A stretch of DNA of 39,143 nucleotides from Lebetimonas sp. JH292 (GTDB lineage Bacteria; Campylobacterota; Campylobacteria; Campylobacterales; Nautiliaceae), in assembly GCF_000523275.1 (NCBI RefSeq), contig NZ_ATHQ01000004.1, forward strand, positions 1 through 39,143. The letters are read 5' to 3'. A program made the translations under genes and the position numbers. The notes under the pieces are model-generated. The model was not told where the DNA came from. It ran no database searches and saw only the letters and a list, made by a program, of their open reading frames with translations. Positions 1 through 25,781 of this stretch are shown here, one piece after another. Each line of letters starts with the position of its first letter. The first letter of the stretch is position 1.

Positions 1-68
1 AGATTAGATGATGCTTTAAAGTTATGATATAATTTCCTCAGCTGACACGGAATTATGAACGGTCTCGT

Positions 69-97
69 AAAAAAAGAATTAAGAAGCTAATTCTTTT
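69..97 (-). terminator. intrinsic terminator of hcp
   Basis: A perfect 10-bp inverted repeat (AAAAGAATTA at 72-81 and TAATTCTTTT at 88-97) with a 6-nt loop spans the last codons and the stop codon of hcp. In the minus-strand transcript it runs into seven U residues (A-run at 69-75). The stem is AT-rich, so its strength is uncertain. Confidence 0.6.
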
Positions 98-1509
98 CCG
101 AAGTCTTTGTGGATGTCTCCTGAAATAACTCCAAGATTGAAGTTTTGAACTAAGAAGTTTACTATATCTTCATTTGCAAATTGAGGAGCGTTTGGTCCGA
201 TATAAATATCTTTTACTCCAAGACTTAAAAGTGCAAGTAAAATAATAATCGCTTTTTGTTCCATCCACATTAGGGCAATTGAAACAGGTAAATCATTTAC
301 ATCCTCAATTCCAAGGGCATTTGCTACAGTTAAAGCAATATGAACCGCACCGTTAGAATCATTACATTGTCCAAGGTCAATATATCTTGGAATGTCAGTT
401 CCAGGGACAGTTCCGAAATCCACATCGTTGAATCTAAATTTACCACAGCTTGATGTAATAATAATATGGTCTTTTGGAACTGCAAGTGCTAATTCTCTAA
501 AATAATTTCTTTTTCTTCCAGGTGCGTCACATCCGGCAATAACCCATACTCTTTTTAATTTTCCTTCTTTTATTGCGTCAAGAACTTTTGCCCCGTAACC
601 TTCAAGCACTGTTTTATAATGATGACCTGTTACAATTTTTTCGTTGCTTTCGAATCCTGAAATATCAGGAAGACTTAAAGTCTGGTCAATCAATGGGTCA
701 AAATTGTCATTTTCTATTTTTTTAGCACCTTCTATACCTGTAATTTTATATGTATAAAGCCTATCTACATAATTTTTGACTTTTGGTGATTTTTCAGGCG
801 GAACTATACAGTTTGTATTTACAACACAAGTTCCTTGCCATTTAGAAAATACATCAGTTTGGTCATACCATGCTTTTCCGATATTTCCTTTTAGGTTTTT
901 GAATTTTTTAAGATGAGGATAACCGTGAGCTGGAAGCATTTCTGAATGGGTATAAACATTTATTTTATCACTGAGTCCTCTTTCTTCAATTCTTTTTAAC
1001 AGTTTTTCAAGCATATCAAGATTATGGCCTGAAACAATAATGCCTTTTCCTTCCGCCTTGTTTTGAGTAACTTCAACAGGTGTTGGAATTCCAAGTGCCT
1101 TTGTGTGCATATCACTTAATAAGTTCATAACTTTAACACCGGCATTTCCAACTTTCATAAGCTGTGCTATGTGCTCATCAAAATTAAAGTTAACATTTGT
1201 AAGTGTGAAATACAATGTTTCACTGTTAACATCATCCACTTCTTTTAATGTTTTTCTTGCTTCTTCATCACCGACTTCCTGAACCAATTCATTAGCGTGT
1301 TCTCTGTATGCGCTAAGTCCTTTTAGACCGTAAATCATCAGGTCTTGTAGTCTTGATTTAGTAGCTGTTTTACCACATACCCCTTTGCTTTCTCCGTGGC
1401 TCCCGCATCCTCCAGGTGCACTCATTTCACATTGCCAACATAAAAATGGTAAATCGCAAGCTTGTTTTTTAGTTTCTTTAGTTTCTTTATTTCCGAATAA
1501 TCCGAACAT
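79..1509 (-). CDS. hcp: hybrid cluster protein / hydroxylamine reductase
   Basis: Hcp carries a [4Fe-4S] cluster and a hybrid Fe-S-O cluster. It reduces hydroxylamine to ammonia or NO to N2O and acts in nitrosative stress; in Nautilia it has been proposed as the last step of a hydroxylamine-based nitrate-to-ammonium route. The 476-aa protein has an N-terminal cysteine set with C-x2-C-x7-C-x8-C spacing (about residues 24-44). Hybrid-cluster motifs follow: NTNC in the middle, then SSCGKFRFN, a GQCNDSNGA block and MWMEQKA near the C-terminus. An ATG 33 nt upstream is in frame, but the ATG at 1507-1509 is preceded by AAGGAG at 1515-1520 and gives the usual start. It is monocistronic, with its own terminator and an FNR-type box upstream. 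No Hcr reductase is adjacent, so the electron donor is unknown. Confidence 0.93.
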   Translation of the reverse strand: MFGLFGNKETKETKKQACDLPFLCWQCEMSAPGGCGSHGESKGVCGKTATKSRLQDLMIYGLKGLSAYREHANELVQEVGDEEARKTLKEVDDVNSETLYFTLTNVNFNFDEHIAQLMKVGNAGVKVMNLLSDMHTKALGIPTPVEVTQNKAEGKGIIVSGHNLDMLEKLLKRIEERGLSDKINVYTHSEMLPAHGYPHLKKFKNLKGNIGKAWYDQTDVFSKWQGTCVVNTNCIVPPEKSPKVKNYVDRLYTYKITGIEGAKKIENDNFDPLIDQTLSLPDISGFESNEKIVTGHHYKTVLEGYGAKVLDAIKEGKLKRVWVIAGCDAPGRKRNYFRELALAVPKDHIIITSSCGKFRFNDVDFGTVPGTDIPRYIDLGQCNDSNGAVHIALTVANALGIEDVNDLPVSIALMWMEQKAIIILLALLSLGVKDIYIGPNAPQFANEDIVNFLVQNFNLGVISGDIHKDFGKELAS

Positions 1510-1540
1510 TTTGACTCCTTGTTTTATTTTTTGTAATCCC

Positions 1541-1584
1541 ATTGTAAAATATTTGTTAAATTAAATCATTGATTATAATCAATG
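1541..1584 (-). promoter_or_regulatory. hcp promoter with FNR-type box
   Basis: An 18-bp perfect palindrome, CATTGATTATAATCAATG, lies at 1567-1584. Its core TTGAT-TATA-ATCAA matches the FNR consensus TTGAT-N4-ATCAA. On the minus strand a -10-like TACAAT sits at 1546-1541, predicting a start of transcription near 1534. That puts the palindrome centre (1575.5) close to -41.5, the class II activator position of CRP/FNR proteins. The transcription start is an estimate. The likely ligand-sensing regulator (FNR, HcpR or NssR type) is not in the window. Confidence 0.72.
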
Positions 1585-3118
1585 GATTTGAAAATTTTAA
1601 GCCGAAGAATCGTAGATGGTGTAAGTGTTTATGAAATTTTGATAGAAGAGAGGGTTTTGATAATTACTGCAAGTATAGGACACGACTTTGATTTGGAAAA
1701 AGAAAAAGGAAAATGGGGGGTGATTGAGAAATATATACCTGTTTTTAAGGTTTTATAATATATTAAAGGCTTTAAATTTAACTTCTTTTGAAGTCAATGA
1801 AGTGATAATTGCTACAGACCCGGATAGGGAAGGGGAAAAAATTGCATTTGATTTAATATTAAACAACAAACCTTATAATTTAAATATAAAAAGGGCCGAA
1901 TTTCACGAAATTACAAAATATGCATTTGTTGAGGCTATGAATAATTTAAGATATTATGATAAAAATTTAGTAGCCGCCCAGTTTGTAAGAAGAATAACTG
2001 ACAGATGGATTGGTTTTAATCTCTCTTTGTATCTTCAAGATTATTTACATAATGTTCATTTATCTGCCGGAAGAGTTCAAACTCCGGTACTTAATTGGAT
2101 TTGTGAAAGGACGCAAAAATTAAAAGAAAAAACAAATGTTGTTATGGTGAAACTGAGCGATTTGACAGTTGAATGGGAATTTGAAGAAGAAAAAAAAGCA
2201 GAGGAATTTTTTGAAAATATTCCTGACGAATTAGAAATTAAGCTGATTAAAAGCAAAAAAGAGAGTCTTTTTGAAAAACCTTTCAATACTTCCACTCTTT
2301 TAAAAGAAGCGTCTTCTAAACTTCATTTTTCACCTCAATATACAATGAAACTGGCTCAGGATCTTTTTGAAAATGGATTTATTACATATCACAGGACGGA
2401 TAGTTTTAGAATTTCTAATATGGGTAAATCAATAGCGAAAGAATATATAAAAGAGAATTTTGGAGAAAATTTTGTTAAATTAAGATGTTTTGAAAGTGCA
2501 GGGGCGCATGAAGCTATAAGGGCTACCACTACTATGGATATGGAAGAGATTAAAAGTTTTTTAGTGTTTAAAAATATAAATTTATCTTATAACCATTTAA
2601 AATTATATGATTTGATTTTTAGAAAATTTATTGCTTCCCAGATGAAAGAAGCCATATTAAAAAAAGATACTTTTAACATCTTGGATAAAGAAATAGAGAT
2701 TATTACAGGAATTTTGGAAGACGGGTTTAATCTTGTTTATCCGGTTAAAATTTATGAATTAAAAGAGGGAAAATACAATATTCAAAAAAGTATTGTGAAA
2801 AAAAGCAAATTTTCTCCTTATACATATGCAGAAATTATTGATGAAATGAAAAATAAAGGAATAGGGAGACCGTCCACATATGCCGTTACAATAGAAAAAC
2901 TGCTTAAAAGAAAATATATAACGGAAAAAAAAGGATTTTTGTTTGCCGCGAAGTTGGGATTTAAGGTTTTGGATTTAATAAAAAAACATCCTTTATATAA
3001 ATTTGTTAATGAAAATTATACAAAAGATCTTGAAAATATTATGGATTTAGTGGAAAACGGCAAAAAAGATTATAAAGATGAATTAATTAAATTATATAAC
3101 GAGTTATTTGTGAGTTAA
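1582..3118 (+). pseudogene. rgy: reverse gyrase, topoisomerase-domain remnant
   Basis: This is the C-terminal, type IA topoisomerase half of a reverse gyrase, the ATP-dependent positive supercoiling enzyme of thermophiles. A first frame (1582-1758) gives the RRIVDGVSVYE and ASIGHDFDL blocks that precede the Toprim acidic motif, then hits a stop. The next frame continues with ATDPDREGEK (Toprim DxD, nt about 1814), AGRVQTPVLNW, the active-site tyrosine in ITYHRTDS (nt 2387) and HEAIRATTTMD. The histidine before RTDS is typical of reverse gyrase rather than bacterial TopA, where it is methionine. The whole helicase half, the first Toprim glutamate segment and any zinc finger are missing, with an in-frame stop at 1576-1578. 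About 511 codons remain of a usual 1,100 or so. The 3' end overlaps the convergent ClC gene by 15 nt. I judge it non-functional. Confidence 0.82.
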
Positions 3119-4426
3119 TGTATTAAAATCTATATTTATAGTATTGAATTTTTTAAGATTAAAATTTAATTTTGTAAGATATGAAATAATGGCAACACTA
3201 AATCCCGTTGCTATAACCACATTATAATCATTTGTTATTTCAAGAGATAAAACTATTGAAGTTAGCGGTAATTTCATAATTACACCCATAAAAACGGCAG
3301 AGCCTATTGCCGCAAAATAAAACGGTTCAAGTCCTATTCCTACATGTAAATACTGTAAAATTAGACCGAACAGATAACCGCTGAGAGCACCTATACTCAT
3401 TAGCGGGACAAACATTCCTCCAATAGCGTTTGAATAGATGGAAAAAGTAGTTGCTATTATTCTTAATAATAAGATTTCTAAAATAAATAAGATATTTAAA
3501 TTTTCATTATTTATTAGAAGTGAAACTATTTTATGACCGGTAAATCCTGCATAAGGGGAAATTATTAAAATAGTTGCAATTACGCTTCCTCCGATAATAG
3601 CAAAAATTAAATCTTTATATTTCCTAAAAATATTGAAAAGCTTTAAATGCATAAAATAGAGTATTTTATCTTGGATAAACAGATAAAAATAAATTAATAA
3701 AGTCATATAAGGTATAAATAATGCGGTAATATATACATATTTAAAATTAATCATTCTACCCGCTGAATATATGAAAGTAAAAGGCTGTAAAAATATTAAA
3801 GCAATGCTGAAAGCACTCAGGCTGCCTACTATAATAAAGGTGATATAACTTTTTATAAAATTATAAGCAATGCTTTCAATGGCAAAAGCAATACCTGTTA
3901 TAGGTGATACGAATATAGCTGCGATTCCGCTGCTTGCACCTATACTTATCATTGGTTTAAGCAGTGTTTCCGGAAATTTAAAAAGTGAATGAATTTTATA
4001 TCCTATCATTGCACCGATTTCCGCAGAAGGGCCTTCTGTTCCCATGGCAAATCCGCTTCCTATTGATAATGCTGAAGCAATTATTTTTAATAAAAGCGTT
4101 TTTATGGTAATCATCTCTTTTTTTTCGGTTACTATTTGCGCTATTTGTTCAACTCCGTATTCTTTAACATTTTTATCTTTATAAATTATGAAATTTACAA
4201 TTAAAATTGATAAAATAGTTATTAGATAAATATACCATTTTGGCCATGTGGAAATAGTAAAAATAGGATTTGAACCGAAAAAGATTTTTGAAATATATTC
4301 CATTATATAATAATAGAAAACAATAAAAAATCCGCTTATAAGCCCTGTAATAATGGAAGCTAATAAAAAATCTCTTATTAAAGAGATTTTATTAGTAATT
4401 TTTTTAAAAAAATCACTAAAAAGCAT
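3104..4426 (-). CDS. ClC-family chloride channel / H+-Cl- antiporter
   Basis: A 440-aa polytopic membrane protein of the voltage-gated chloride channel family, expected to move chloride across the inner membrane, often in exchange for protons. The three anion-selectivity regions are visible: a GSGFA segment followed by GTEGPSAEIG (the gating glutamate, near residue 130), the GIAAIFVSPITG segment, and GGMFVPLMSIG toward the C-terminus. About ten hydrophobic stretches fit the fold. There is no C-terminal CBS pair, as in compact bacterial forms. The start codon overlaps the stop of the upstream hydroxylase-family gene (TAATG), so the two are probably translationally coupled. The 3' end overlaps the reverse gyrase remnant on the other strand. 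Channel versus antiporter cannot be decided here. Confidence 0.9.
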   Translation of the reverse strand: MLFSDFFKKITNKISLIRDFLLASIITGLISGFFIVFYYYIMEYISKIFFGSNPIFTISTWPKWYIYLITILSILIVNFIIYKDKNVKEYGVEQIAQIVTEKKEMITIKTLLLKIIASALSIGSGFAMGTEGPSAEIGAMIGYKIHSLFKFPETLLKPMISIGASSGIAAIFVSPITGIAFAIESIAYNFIKSYITFIIVGSLSAFSIALIFLQPFTFIYSAGRMINFKYVYITALFIPYMTLLIYFYLFIQDKILYFMHLKLFNIFRKYKDLIFAIIGGSVIATILIISPYAGFTGHKIVSLLINNENLNILFILEILLLRIIATTFSIYSNAIGGMFVPLMSIGALSGYLFGLILQYLHVGIGLEPFYFAAIGSAVFMGVIMKLPLTSIVLSLEITNDYNVVIATGFSVAIISYLTKLNFNLKKFNTINIDFNTLTHK

Positions 4427-7410: not shown

Positions 7411-8597
7411 ACATAACCTTCGATAATAAATCTTAAGGCATTTAATTTAATAAATCCTGCAGCATCTTTTTGATTATATACGCTATCTTCTTCAAATGTT
7501 GCAAATTCAGGGCTAAACAATGAATATGGTGATTTTCTGCCGACTACGTATACATTTCCTTTATATAGTTTTAGTCTTACAGTTCCGGTTGCATTTTTTT
7601 GGGTTTCATCAATTAGTTTTTGAAGAGCAACTCTCTCAGGTGCAAACCAAAAACCATTATAAATAAGTTCTGCGTATTTTGGCATTATTTCATCTTTTAA
7701 ATGAGCCTCACCCCTGTCAAGTGTAATAGATTCAATAGCTCTGTGTGCTTTAAGCAGGATTGTTCCTCCTGGAGTTTCATAACAGCCTCTACTTTTCATT
7801 CCCACAAATCTGTTTTCCACTATATCAATTCTTCCAATTCCGTGTTTTTTACCAAATTCGTTTAATGTTTCAAGAATTTTTGCCGGTGTCATTTGTTTAC
7901 TATTTATTGCGACAGCGTCACCTTTTTCAAAATCAATTTCAATATATTCAGGTTTATCAGGAGCATTTTCAGGTGAAACAGTCCATCTCCACATATCTTC
8001 TTCAGGTTCAGCCCAAGGGTCTTCCAAAATTCCGCCTTCGTATGAAATATGAAGCATATTTGCATCCATTGAATAAGGAGATTTTTTCCCGTGCCTTTCG
8101 ATAGGAATACCGTGGGTTTTAGCATATGCCAGTAATTTTTCCCGGCTATTTAAATCCCATTCTCTCCAAGGGGCAATAACTTTGATATCAGGTTTTAGGG
8201 CATAATATCCAAGCTCAAATCTTACCTGATCGTTTCCTTTTCCTGTTGCACCGTGGGCAACCGCTTCAGCCCCTACCTGATTTGCTATTTCAATCTGTCT
8301 TTTTGCAATAAGAGGTCTTGCAATCGAGGTTCCTAGCAAATATTCCCCTTCATAAATTGCATTAGCCCTGAACATTGGAAACACATAATCTCTTACAAAT
8401 TCTTCTCTTAAGTCTTCAATAAAAATATTTTCCGGTTTTACCCCTAGTTTAATTGCTTTTTCCCTAGCAATTTCCACTTCTTCACCCTGTCCTATATCGG
8501 CTGTGAATGTTACAACCTCAGCATTATATTTATCTTGCAGCCATTTTAAAATTACGCTTGTATCAAGTCCTCCTGAATATGCTAAAACAACTTTCAT
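7395..8597 (-). CDS. argG: argininosuccinate synthase
   Basis: Joins citrulline and aspartate with ATP to give argininosuccinate, the penultimate step of arginine synthesis, in the cytosol as a tetramer. The 400-aa length is normal. The N-type ATP pyrophosphatase loop AYSGGLDTS is at residues 6-14, followed by the [12 protein letters not shown] substrate-binding block (about 118-129) and the [16 protein letters not shown] block near the C-terminus. The start has AAAAGGATATTT just before it. It is a single-gene unit facing the S4-domain gene, with overlapping divergent promoters. No arginine-pathway neighbour is present. Confidence 0.97.
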
Positions 8598-8617
8598 AAA
8601 TATCCTTTTTTATTGCA

Positions 8618-8630
8618 ATTATAGTATAAT
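8618..8630. promoter_or_regulatory. divergent overlapping promoters of argG and the S4-protein operon
   Basis: TATAAT reads on the minus strand at 8623-8618 (argG) and on the plus strand at 8625-8630 (S4 protein, proS, fxsA). The two -10 boxes are one base apart, so polymerase binding in the two directions should be mutually exclusive. Confidence 0.6.
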
Positions 8631-8650
8631 TTGACTAAAAAAGGGATAGT

Positions 8651-8896
8651 TTGAGAATTGATAAATTTTTGAATTCCGTCAATATTGTAAAAAGACGAAG
8701 CACGGCAGATGAAATGTGCAAAGAGGGAGTTGTTTTTGTTAACGGTAAAAAAGTAAAATCAAGTAAAGATGTGAAAGTAGGTGACAAAATAGAAATTCAC
8801 TATTTAAGCGGAATAAAAAAATATAATGTTTTAAAACTTCCCGAAACCAAAACAATTCCGAAAAGTAAAAAAAATGAATATGTTAAGGAGCTTTAA
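8651..8896 (+). CDS. S4-domain RNA-binding protein (RqcP/Hsp15 type)
   Basis: An 81-aa protein that is essentially a single S4 RNA-binding domain: MRIDKFLNSVNIVKRRS and the EGVVFVNGKKVKSSKDVKVGD segment contain the conserved helix-turn-helix-like and beta-turn residues. Small proteins of this kind (Hsp15, RqcP/YabO) bind the 50S subunit and act in rescue of stalled nascent chains; that role is from family knowledge. The start is a TTG at 8651, with AAAGGG about 8 nt upstream and no usable ATG. Its stop overlaps the proS start (TAATG), giving translational coupling with a translation enzyme, which fits a ribosome-linked role. Confidence 0.85.
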   Translation: MRIDKFLNSVNIVKRRSTADEMCKEGVVFVNGKKVKSSKDVKVGDKIEIHYLSGIKKYNVLKLPETKTIPKSKKNEYVKEL

Positions 8897-10620
8897 TGAG
8901 ATGGAGCAAATTTTTTTTATATACACTTAAAGAAACGCCAAAAGATGCGCTAACCCCAAGTCATATTTATTTAATAAGAGGCGGATATATAAAGCAAGTT
9001 GCGGCAGGAATATATGATTTTACTCCTATTGGAAAAATGGTACTTGATAATATAAGGGCTATTATAAAAGAGGAGATGGACAAAGCCGGGGCTCAGGAAG
9101 TAATGCTGAGTTTTGTAACACCTTATGAACTGTGGGAAGAGACAGGCAGGGCTAAAAAATACGGAGATGAACTGCTAAGGATTGAAGACAGAAAAGGTCA
9201 AAAATTTGTCCTCTCACCTACAAATGAAGAGAGTGTTGTTGATTTGGTAAGAAGTTATGTAAAAAGTTATAAACAGCTTCCTATTAATTTGTATCAGATA
9301 AATTTAAAATTCAGAGATGAGGCAAGACCTAGATTTGGGCTTTTAAGAGGAAGGGAATTTATAATGAAAGATGCTTATTCATTTCATTCAAGCAGGGATG
9401 ATTTGGATAGGGAATTTAATTTAATGCAGGAAACTTATGAAAAAATTTTCAGCAGGTTGGGACTTGATTTTAGGGTGGTTGAGGCAGACAGCGGCGCAAT
9501 TGGAGGTACCGGAAGCCGAGAATTTATGGTTCTTGCAAATACAGGCGAAGATGATATTGTGGTATGCAGCGAGTGTAATTATGCAGCAAATATCGAGGTT
9601 GCCAAAAGAAAACATATTAAAAAAGAGAATCCGATAAAAACTGATGAAATTGAAGAAATCCATACCCCAGATATTAAAACAATTGATGAGGTAAGTGAAT
9701 TTACAGGAATAGATAAAGATTTTATTATAAAAGCGGTTGTTAAAAAAGCAGTCTTTGAAACTAATGAAGAAATAGTGGTGTTTTTCATAAGAGGCAGTGA
9801 CGATCTTGAAGAAACAAAAGCCAAAAATGCACTTGGCGCAATTGATTTAGTTGATGCAAGCGAAGAAGAAATAGAGAGTGCTGGATTGGTTCCAGGTTTT
9901 ATAGGTCCTTTTGGACTTCCAGGTAATATAAAATATGTAATTGATGATGATTTAAGAGGTGCCGAAGAATTGGTATGCGGTGCAAATAAAAAAGATTATC
10001 ACATAAAAGGCGCGGGGCTTCTTGATGCAAATCTGCTTGGTAATTTGACTATTTACAGAGATATAGCAAAAGTTAAAGTTGGAGATTTGTGTCCAAAATG
10101 CGGAGCACCTCTTAAAATTACAAAAGGGATTGAAGTAGGGCATATTTTTAAACTGGGTACTGCTTATAGCGAAAAAATGAACGCAACATTTCTTGATGAA
10201 AACGGAAAAGCAAAACCTTTTGTTATGGGATGCTATGGAATTGGGGTCAGCAGACTTATAGCTGCTGCAATTGAACAAAACCATGATGATAAAGGAATCA
10301 TCTGGCCAAAAGAGATAGCTCCTTTTGTTGTTGATATTCTTGTAGGGGATGTTAAGAAAACAGACCAATTTGAGTTTGCGGAGAGTTTTTATGAAAATTT
10401 GACAAATGCCGGAATTAAAACAATACTTGATGACAGGGCTGAGAGATTTGGTCCAAAAATTGCTGATTTTGAGCTGGTAGGATTACCTGTCGGGGTAATT
10501 GTCGGTAAGAAACTTAAAGATGGCAAAGTAGAGATAAGGGATAGAAAAACAGGTAAAAAATTTGAAGTAAATGCAAATGAAGTATTCGAAAAAATTATGG
10601 AAATTATAAACAAGGGCTGA
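8896..10620 (+). CDS. proS: prolyl-tRNA synthetase, bacterial type
   Basis: Charges tRNA-Pro with proline. The 574-aa protein is the bacterial class II form with an inserted editing domain. Motif 2 is at FRDEARPRFGLLRGREF (about residues 137-153). The editing insertion (about 230-400) includes GSDDLEETKAKNAL. Motif 3 is GCYGIGVSRLIAAAIEQ (about 443-459), and the anticodon-binding domain ends the protein. CSEC and CPKC pairs in the insertion resemble a zinc-ribbon-like site. It is the second gene of the S4-proS-fxsA unit; the start overlaps the preceding stop by one base. Confidence 0.97.
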   Translation: MRWSKFFLYTLKETPKDALTPSHIYLIRGGYIKQVAAGIYDFTPIGKMVLDNIRAIIKEEMDKAGAQEVMLSFVTPYELWEETGRAKKYGDELLRIEDRKGQKFVLSPTNEESVVDLVRSYVKSYKQLPINLYQINLKFRDEARPRFGLLRGREFIMKDAYSFHSSRDDLDREFNLMQETYEKIFSRLGLDFRVVEADSGAIGGTGSREFMVLANTGEDDIVVCSECNYAANIEVAKRKHIKKENPIKTDEIEEIHTPDIKTIDEVSEFTGIDKDFIIKAVVKKAVFETNEEIVVFFIRGSDDLEETKAKNALGAIDLVDASEEEIESAGLVPGFIGPFGLPGNIKYVIDDDLRGAEELVCGANKKDYHIKGAGLLDANLLGNLTIYRDIAKVKVGDLCPKCGAPLKITKGIEVGHIFKLGTAYSEKMNATFLDENGKAKPFVMGCYGIGVSRLIAAAIEQNHDDKGIIWPKEIAPFVVDILVGDVKKTDQFEFAESFYENLTNAGIKTILDDRAERFGPKIADFELVGLPVGVIVGKKLKDGKVEIRDRKTGKKFEVNANEVFEKIMEIINKG

Positions 10621-24423: not shown

Positions 24424-25081
24424 GTAATTCCTTAAATTCAATTTTGTAATAATCATTTGGAAAATGAACGCTTTTAATTAAAAATTTTTTATTGTTGATT
24501 TTTTCTGTTTTTTCTTTTTTGAAATCAAATTCAATATTAAATTTATCTTCAAATTCTTCTAAATCGTTAATTTTACCAAAAATATTTTTAAAAGGTTTGT
24601 TACAGATTATGTTTTGATTATTTTTACAGATACAGATTGGATAATTTTTTTCTTCTATTAAATTTTTTAAAATTTCCAAATATTCTTTTGTCTCTTTTCT
24701 TTCATTGATAATTTTTGCAAATTTTTTTAATGTCTTAAACAGAGAATCTTTAAAAATGGGTTTTGTCAAATATCCGTCAATTCCTATATCAATAGCTTTT
24801 TTCATATAATCCATATCTGAAAAAGCGGTAATTACAAGAATTATAATGTTTTTATCTCTGTTTTTGATATATTCGGAAAGTTCCAAACCGGAAATTTCAG
24901 GCATTTTAATATCTGTAATTATTAAATCTAAATTATTGTTGTTAAAAATTTCAATTGCTTTTTTTGCATCTTCCGCAATAAAAAATTTATTGAATAAATC
25001 CTTAACAAGTAACGAAAAAGCTTCTCTTACCATTTCGTCGTCTTCTACAAAAAGAACGTTTAAATTTTTTAATCCCCGCAT
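24413..25081 (-). CDS. orphan response regulator with receiver and PAS-like region
   Basis: A 222-aa protein. Residues about 6-125 form a receiver domain with all key residues: the acidic pair in FVEDDE, the phospho-acceptor aspartate in ITDIKMPEISG, the threonine in VITAFSD and the lysine in LTKPIF. A helical linker follows, and the last 80 residues (ICKNNQNIICNKPFKNIFG onward) look like a degenerate PAS domain rather than a DNA-binding output. No histidine kinase gene is in the window. It overlaps the CinA-like gene upstream by 13 nt and a membrane-protein gene downstream by 11 nt, in the adk unit. The output is unknown. Confidence 0.8.
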   Translation of the reverse strand: MRGLKNLNVLFVEDDEMVREAFSLLVKDLFNKFFIAEDAKKAIEIFNNNNLDLIITDIKMPEISGLELSEYIKNRDKNIIILVITAFSDMDYMKKAIDIGIDGYLTKPIFKDSLFKTLKKFAKIINERKETKEYLEILKNLIEEKNYPICICKNNQNIICNKPFKNIFGKINDLEEFEDKFNIEFDFKKEKTEKINNKKFLIKSVHFPNDYYKIEFKELHVL

Positions 25082-25521
25082 TCTTCAAACTTTATATTTT
25101 TATTGGCTAGCTCATTTTTAAACCATTCATAAACTTTTTTTGCACCATCTCCAGCAAAAGATATTTCACTGGTATAATCCAGCTTTGGCAAAGTGGAAAA
25201 TTCTACACTTTTAGGGATTTTATTCATAATATCAAGCATTTCAGATTCTTTTGCATGTGCTAAAAGAGTGTAGCGTTTCTTTTTATTTTTTAAAGGAAAA
25301 AATTTATCCAGAGCTTCTATAGTCATAGGATGTGCCATTTCAGGAAATCCCGGCATAAAGAAAAATTTGTTATCAATATAAAATCCGGGAAAACCGTTTA
25401 TAGGATTATTCCAAAGAGGCTTTGCATTTTTAGGCCAGTATGCCAGAGGGTATTTTTTTGAATTATCAACACCCGGAAATTTTTTATCTATTTTTTTTAT
25501 AAAATCCTGATTATATTTCAT
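25069..25521 (-). CDS. CinA/MoCF-like protein, C-terminal part (split gene)
   Basis: A 150-aa continuation of the competence/damage-inducible CinA-type molybdopterin-binding domain family. AYWPKNAKPLWNNPINGFPG and the FFMPGFPEMAHPM block correspond to the conserved N-P-x-G-x-x-P-G and P-G-x-P-x-E motifs that normally follow the GGIGATPDD motif in one polypeptide. That first motif is encoded by the gene immediately upstream in a different frame. The ATG here overlaps the upstream TGA as ATGA, so the halves could be made by coupled reinitiation. Alternatively one base is missing near 25521-25526. Family role: nicotinamide-nucleotide or pterin-related hydrolysis in some members; not assignable here. 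Confidence 0.7.
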   Translation of the reverse strand: MKYNQDFIKKIDKKFPGVDNSKKYPLAYWPKNAKPLWNNPINGFPGFYIDNKFFFMPGFPEMAHPMTIEALDKFFPLKNKKKRYTLLAHAKESEMLDIMNKIPKSVEFSTLPKLDYTSEISFAGDGAKKVYEWFKNELANKNIKFEECGD

Positions 25522-25781
25522 TTAAAAACTTCTGCAGCTAAATTTCTTGTATAATCATCCGGAGTTGCCCCGATACCGCCATAACAGAAAAGATAAGAAT
25601 TAGAAGTTTTTTTTATAAAATTAAAAATATTTTTAATTAAAAGGGGGTCGTCTTTTATAATAAAAGAGGCTTTTAGTTCATATCCTCTTTTTATTAATTC
25701 GTCTCTTAAAAATTTAAAATGTTTATCCTCTCTTCTTGCGTTTAGTATTTCCGTTCCTATAATTACCTGAAAAATATTCAT
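25518..25781 (-). CDS. CinA/MoCF-like protein, N-terminal part (split gene)
   Basis: An 87-aa product with the start of a MoaB/MogA-like (MoCF) domain: FQVIIGTEILNARREDKHF at the N-terminus, the FIIKDDPLLIKNIF helix, and FCYGGIGATPDDYTRNLAAE, the GGxGxTxDD signature. In the family this domain runs on for another 70-150 residues without a break, so 87 aa is truncated. The rest is encoded by the overlapping downstream gene in the -1 frame. An extra A in the run at the end (TTT AAA A ATG) would join both into one protein of about 237 aa. It starts inside the adk stop (TAATG). Confidence 0.7.
   Translation of the reverse strand: MNIFQVIIGTEILNARREDKHFKFLRDELIKRGYELKASFIIKDDPLLIKNIFNFIKKTSNSYLFCYGGIGATPDDYTRNLAAEVFK

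Follow-up and report, generated by a model that had tools for sequence, protein, structure and literature searches.

The window analysed here, which is the entire 39,143-base contig C4 of the 1.641-Mb Lebetimonas sp. JH292 assembly (G000; 99.68% complete), carries the topoisomerase half of a Nautiliaceae reverse gyrase at positions 1600-3118. We think it fairly likely that this fragment is what remains of the reverse gyrase gene (rgy) that the family inherits vertically, and that the gene was recently lost when one deletion removed about 1.72 kb in place. That a deletion of this size is real, taking all readings that accept it together, appears quite probable from the sequence of this one assembly. 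We give a slightly better than even chance to the broader proposition that a vent bacterium from a thermophilic family has recently, and naturally, become a reverse gyrase knockout while its sister species retains the gene.

The identity of the fragment is well defined. Its frame at 1724-3118 (464 codons) matches the reverse gyrase profile NCBIfam TIGR01054 with 495.5 bits against a cut-off of 471.7 and covers only positions 708-1168 of the 1172 in the model, while a profile search aligned a short piece at 1603-1818, which lies in a different frame, to model positions 622-696. Pfam recognized Topoisom_bac (PF01131) and a partial Toprim domain in the window fragment, and no helicase domain. The fragment is 78% identical to the gene of another species of the same genus (G033), 60-78% identical to the reverse gyrases across the Nautiliaceae, and about 38% identical to TopA; it contains the motif ITYHRTDS that is found in all reverse gyrases checked, whereas all TopA proteins checked read ITYMRTDS. 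The preliminary description had recognized a topoisomerase half with a reverse-gyrase-specific ITYHRTDS in a vent-type member of the Campylobacterota. These assignments hold, and the alignment with Nautiliaceae reverse gyrases that it had proposed as a check points to no other topoisomerase family. The C-terminal type IA half of a reverse gyrase is consequently present; the zf_Rg and DEAD domains of the other half, both found in G033, are absent from the window and the genome, and a complete Toprim domain with VVESPTKAK is lacking, as the deletion ends past the ESPTKAK...GRP segment of the G033 protein.

The chromosomal setting is that of the intact orthologue. In G033, rgy (1070 aa; L068:7823-11035) is flanked by hcp and a gene for a ClC-type chloride channel, and collinearity with the window extends from hcp through proS. 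The divergently oriented hcp gene (hybrid cluster protein; 79-1542, minus strand) of the window is 95% identical to its G033 counterpart, and the ClC gene (3104-4426, minus strand) located downstream of the fragment is 88% identical. Several MAGs and G015 (Caminibacter) likewise have hcp next to rgy; the ClC gene separates the two in Nautilia and G075. Compared with G033, the window is about 1.72 kb shorter (L068 about 7780-9509), and alignment places the junction at 1583-1600, with 0-4 bases of microhomology: the missing stretch starts just past the palindrome TTGATTATAATCAA at 1569-1582 and the gene resumes at codon 563. What has been removed are residues 1-562, i.e., the start codon, the zinc finger, the whole helicase and the first Toprim strand with VVESPTKAK, which aligns with IIVESPTKA in the Thermotoga maritima structure 4ddt. 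One gap leading from intergenic DNA to codon 563 is what the preliminary description had envisaged in attributing the missing 5' half to a single deletion at the hcp promoter.

The retained sequence falls into two pieces, both on the plus strand. The first (1600-1755) corresponds to G033 residues 563-613 inside the Toprim domain, past the lost ESPTKAK (tblastn, 75% over 52 aa), and happens to be preceded in frame by an ATG at 1582; from this ATG the frame runs for 58 codons and ends at TAA 1756-1758. The second (1760-3118) is 78% identical to G033 over 452 aa, and comprises the last part of Toprim, which contains DPDREGE, and the entire topoisomerase domain (PF01131) with the catalytic ITYHRTDS, in a frame shifted by one base that stays open up to the natural stop. 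The best start candidates for the 464-codon frame, TTG 1724 and GTG 1802, both lie inside Toprim. Between the two pieces, at 1753-1758, 11 bases are missing relative to G033. The frame change within Toprim that had been described earlier is thus there, at about position 1755, although it may be an assembly error. A programmed frameshift at this point would mend the frame, yet the product would still have neither the helicase half nor ESPTKAK.

No helicase half was found when the missing 562 residues were used as a query against the whole genome. The same query served as a control and detected a helicase half in 15 of the 21 genomes of the family; among those at least 90% complete it did so in 11 of 12, the JH292 assembly being the sole exception. 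The only other type IA topoisomerase in the genome that matched the reverse gyrase profile is TopA (729 aa). A second intact rgy copy or a separate helicase gene was therefore rejected, as neither turned up in the profile search or in the 562-residue search of the genome. That the enzyme has been replaced, which had been offered as one possibility, is not supported; only the usual TopA was found. The suggestion that the lineage is losing reverse gyrase is likewise too wide, since the gene is kept by the sister species and by every other genome of the family with a completeness of 90% or more. Neither half of a reverse gyrase was found in G113 and G107, which are 83% and 89% complete, respectively, and this incompleteness leaves further losses in the family possible.

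The weight that can be placed on the 11-base break depends on the quality of the assembly. When proteins of G033, N. profundicola and G015 were searched against about 1.2 Mb of the JH292 genome, 12 of 158, 13 of 188 and 13 of 173 located genes (about 7%) lay in more than one frame; the corresponding values for control genomes of the same family were 0/58, 0/63, 0/59, 0/75 and 1/75 (0-1 of about 330). Among the broken genes are dxr (C1:858435-859513), hemC (C1:323849-324725), glmS (C1:780445-782147), porB (C1:865229-866145) and leuS (C1:909914-912366), some with indels of 22-34 bases. As dxr, hemC and leuS are single-copy in the assembly and a living cell is not expected to do without them, most of these breaks are probably assembly errors, and pseudogene calls based on this assembly need checking. 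The 42 unique break sites mostly change the net length by 1-38 bases, and besides rgy three further sites show a net loss of 11 or 10 bases. The break in rgy is hence ordinary for this assembly and provides no evidence for the decay that had been read into it. The large deletion stands apart: no other located gene has a loss comparable to 1.72 kb, the largest net loss between aligned pieces being 226 bases in a degraded LPS cluster to which the larger losses mainly belong, and more than one fifth of the length was missing in only 0-1 of about 500 gene comparisons.

The retained half shows no erosion other than the two length changes. Codon models gave an omega of 0.049 on the JH292 branch against 0.050 on the other branches and, with separate classes, 0.051 for JH292 and 0.043 for G033; on the JH292 branch a value of 0.10 was rejected (2dlnL 5.2) and one of 1.0 strongly so (32.4). 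Relative-rate tests on the retained half were not significant, and at the 165 columns invariant in 12 relatives JH292 and G033 each depart four times. The gene had been called decaying, a term that these data do not bear out: there is no excess of substitutions, omega equals that of the intact relatives, and inactivation is either recent or unreal. The 450 codons that are left still have the look of sequence under selection, so that a real loss would be recent relative to the split of the sister species. If the fragment has been neutral since its loss, the bounds on omega place this event within about the last 5% of the branch, a rough estimate since it assumes a mixture of constrained and neutral time and synonymous sites are near saturation. 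Relaxed selection, as might be looked for in a pseudogene, is not apparent in the remnant, and neutrality over the whole branch is rejected; this fits a very recent loss, and the absence of substitutional decay is also expected if the deletion is unreal.

An assembly artefact is the alternative that has to be taken most seriously, although we consider it unlikely. The rgy gene of the organism would be intact, and the assembler would have skipped an unassembled piece of 1.7 kb and fused the intergenic DNA beside hcp directly to the topoisomerase half, the 11-base loss having the same origin. The frame-breaking indels found throughout the assembly, the recurrence of 10- and 11-base losses and the missing substitutional decay are all compatible with this; moreover, the contig starts with a repeat, 1.6 kb away from the deletion, so that doubt about the latter persists. 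However, 1.7 kb is at least 40 times the size of the errors seen in housekeeping genes, and a genome that is 99.68% complete leaves little room for dropped pieces of kilobase size. As losses in the other located genes reach about 0.2 kb at most and are thus not comparable, the deletion is probably real.

Two further readings accept the deletion and assign the fragment a function. The topoisomerase half might survive as an independent protein with a different task, such as DNA binding, and a stop-free frame of 464 codons with an omega of 0.05 would agree with such selection; yet the catalytic ESPTKAK region is gone, the best starts fall inside Toprim, no comparable short form occurs elsewhere in the family, and a recent loss suffices to explain the low omega. 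We regard this as improbable. Less probable still is that the enzyme is naturally split, like that of Nanoarchaeum, and that another locus encodes the helicase half. Such split enzymes do exist (PMC6878951), but the helicase-half search of a nearly complete genome, with its positive control in the family, largely refutes this reading for JH292, where no separate gene was found and Toprim is cut through with its first strand missing.

On the reading that we prefer, a recently truncated vertical copy, one deletion that starts between hcp and rgy and reaches codon 563 would have taken the start codon, the zinc finger, the helicase-like half and the first Toprim strand, and the 11-base frame break would be either a second lesion or an assembly error. 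The product, if made, would be a topoisomerase piece without the ATP-driven motor and without the Toprim glutamate. As positive supercoiling would be precluded in this way, and cleavage and rejoining of DNA most likely as well, the fragment is not a reverse gyrase; judged from the known type IA mechanism, topoisomerase activity is most likely absent.

Truncated reverse gyrase genes as such are already known. Thermus thermophilus HB27 has a truncated reverse gyrase pseudogene, and the gene is intact in strain HB8 (PMC1274311). This case resembles ours in the truncation itself, in the intact gene of a close relative, and in the loss within a thermophilic species or genus; it differs in that the HB27 gene resides on a megaplasmid and was judged horizontally acquired (PMC1274311), whereas the gene in the window is vertically inherited and sits in a conserved neighborhood. 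From the intact Nautiliaceae genes, such as those of Nautilia profundicola and G033, to which it is orthologous, the fragment is set apart by the lack of residues 1-562 and by the frame break; with TopA, encoded by a separate gene, it has the type IA topoisomerase domain in common. Within the genus, Lebetimonas natsushimae was reported to possess reverse gyrase (PMC6878951), and L. acidiphila was rgy-positive by PCR (PMC2628731). A survey met partial or broken reverse gyrase sequences (PMC6878951). Our literature search for a loss of this kind in the Nautiliales found none besides the negative rgy PCR of Nautilia lithotrophica (PMC2628731). Two primers printed in one study (PMC2628731) could be placed by eye in the retained half: AmHrgy2022F coincides with DPDREGE, and a forward primer of Epsilon-like type reads WIGFG. 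As the rgy primers that could be placed sit in the retained half, PCR surveys would score JH292 as positive and miss the deletion; surveys that target the topoisomerase half hence risk counting broken genes as present.

Lower growth temperature was considered as a cause of the loss. Unpaired amino-acid composition (the IVYWREL rule) gave an optimum of 45.6 °C for JH292 compared with 53.8 °C for G033. Across 66 paired orthologues, the IVYWREL index is the same in the two species (0.4174 and 0.4168), and the G+C content of their tRNAs is equal; these data do not support such a cause.

Reverse gyrase is the protein tied most closely to life at high temperature, and the reason why moderate vent thermophiles keep it is unsettled. 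If the loss proposed here is true, a family member freshly without rgy beside a sister species with it would provide a natural test of this question, and a matched pair in which the contribution of reverse gyrase to heat tolerance can be measured.

Several features of the assembly were noted in passing. The contig opens (window 1-80) with a repeat 66-80 bases long, which occurs at least five more times in the assembly (C1:1410824, 1410941, 1415319, 1415413 and 644382), the copies being 89-97% identical. Compared with N. profundicola, the MoCF_biosynth (molybdopterin-binding) gene at 25081-25781 of the window (minus strand) is split between two frames and lacks 10 bases in a clean gap. An AT-rich insert of about 2 kb (C1:730991-732938) that has no long frames and contains apparent remains of an adenine methyltransferase (DPTCGSG) interrupts yifB, which encodes a ComM-like ATPase. 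In the LPS cluster at C1:738800-748200, genes for a heptosyltransferase, a lauroyl acyltransferase and others show losses of 26-226 bases compared with G033; this locus is either decaying or badly assembled, and its breaks, together with the degraded yifB insert, may represent real decay. Finally, the palindrome between hcp and rgy (TTGAT-N4-ATCAA), which we take to be a candidate of the FNR type, is found in both species, at window positions 1569-1582 and, as TTGATTGCAATCAA, at about 7759-7772 of L068 in G033, and it may control hcp, rgy or both.
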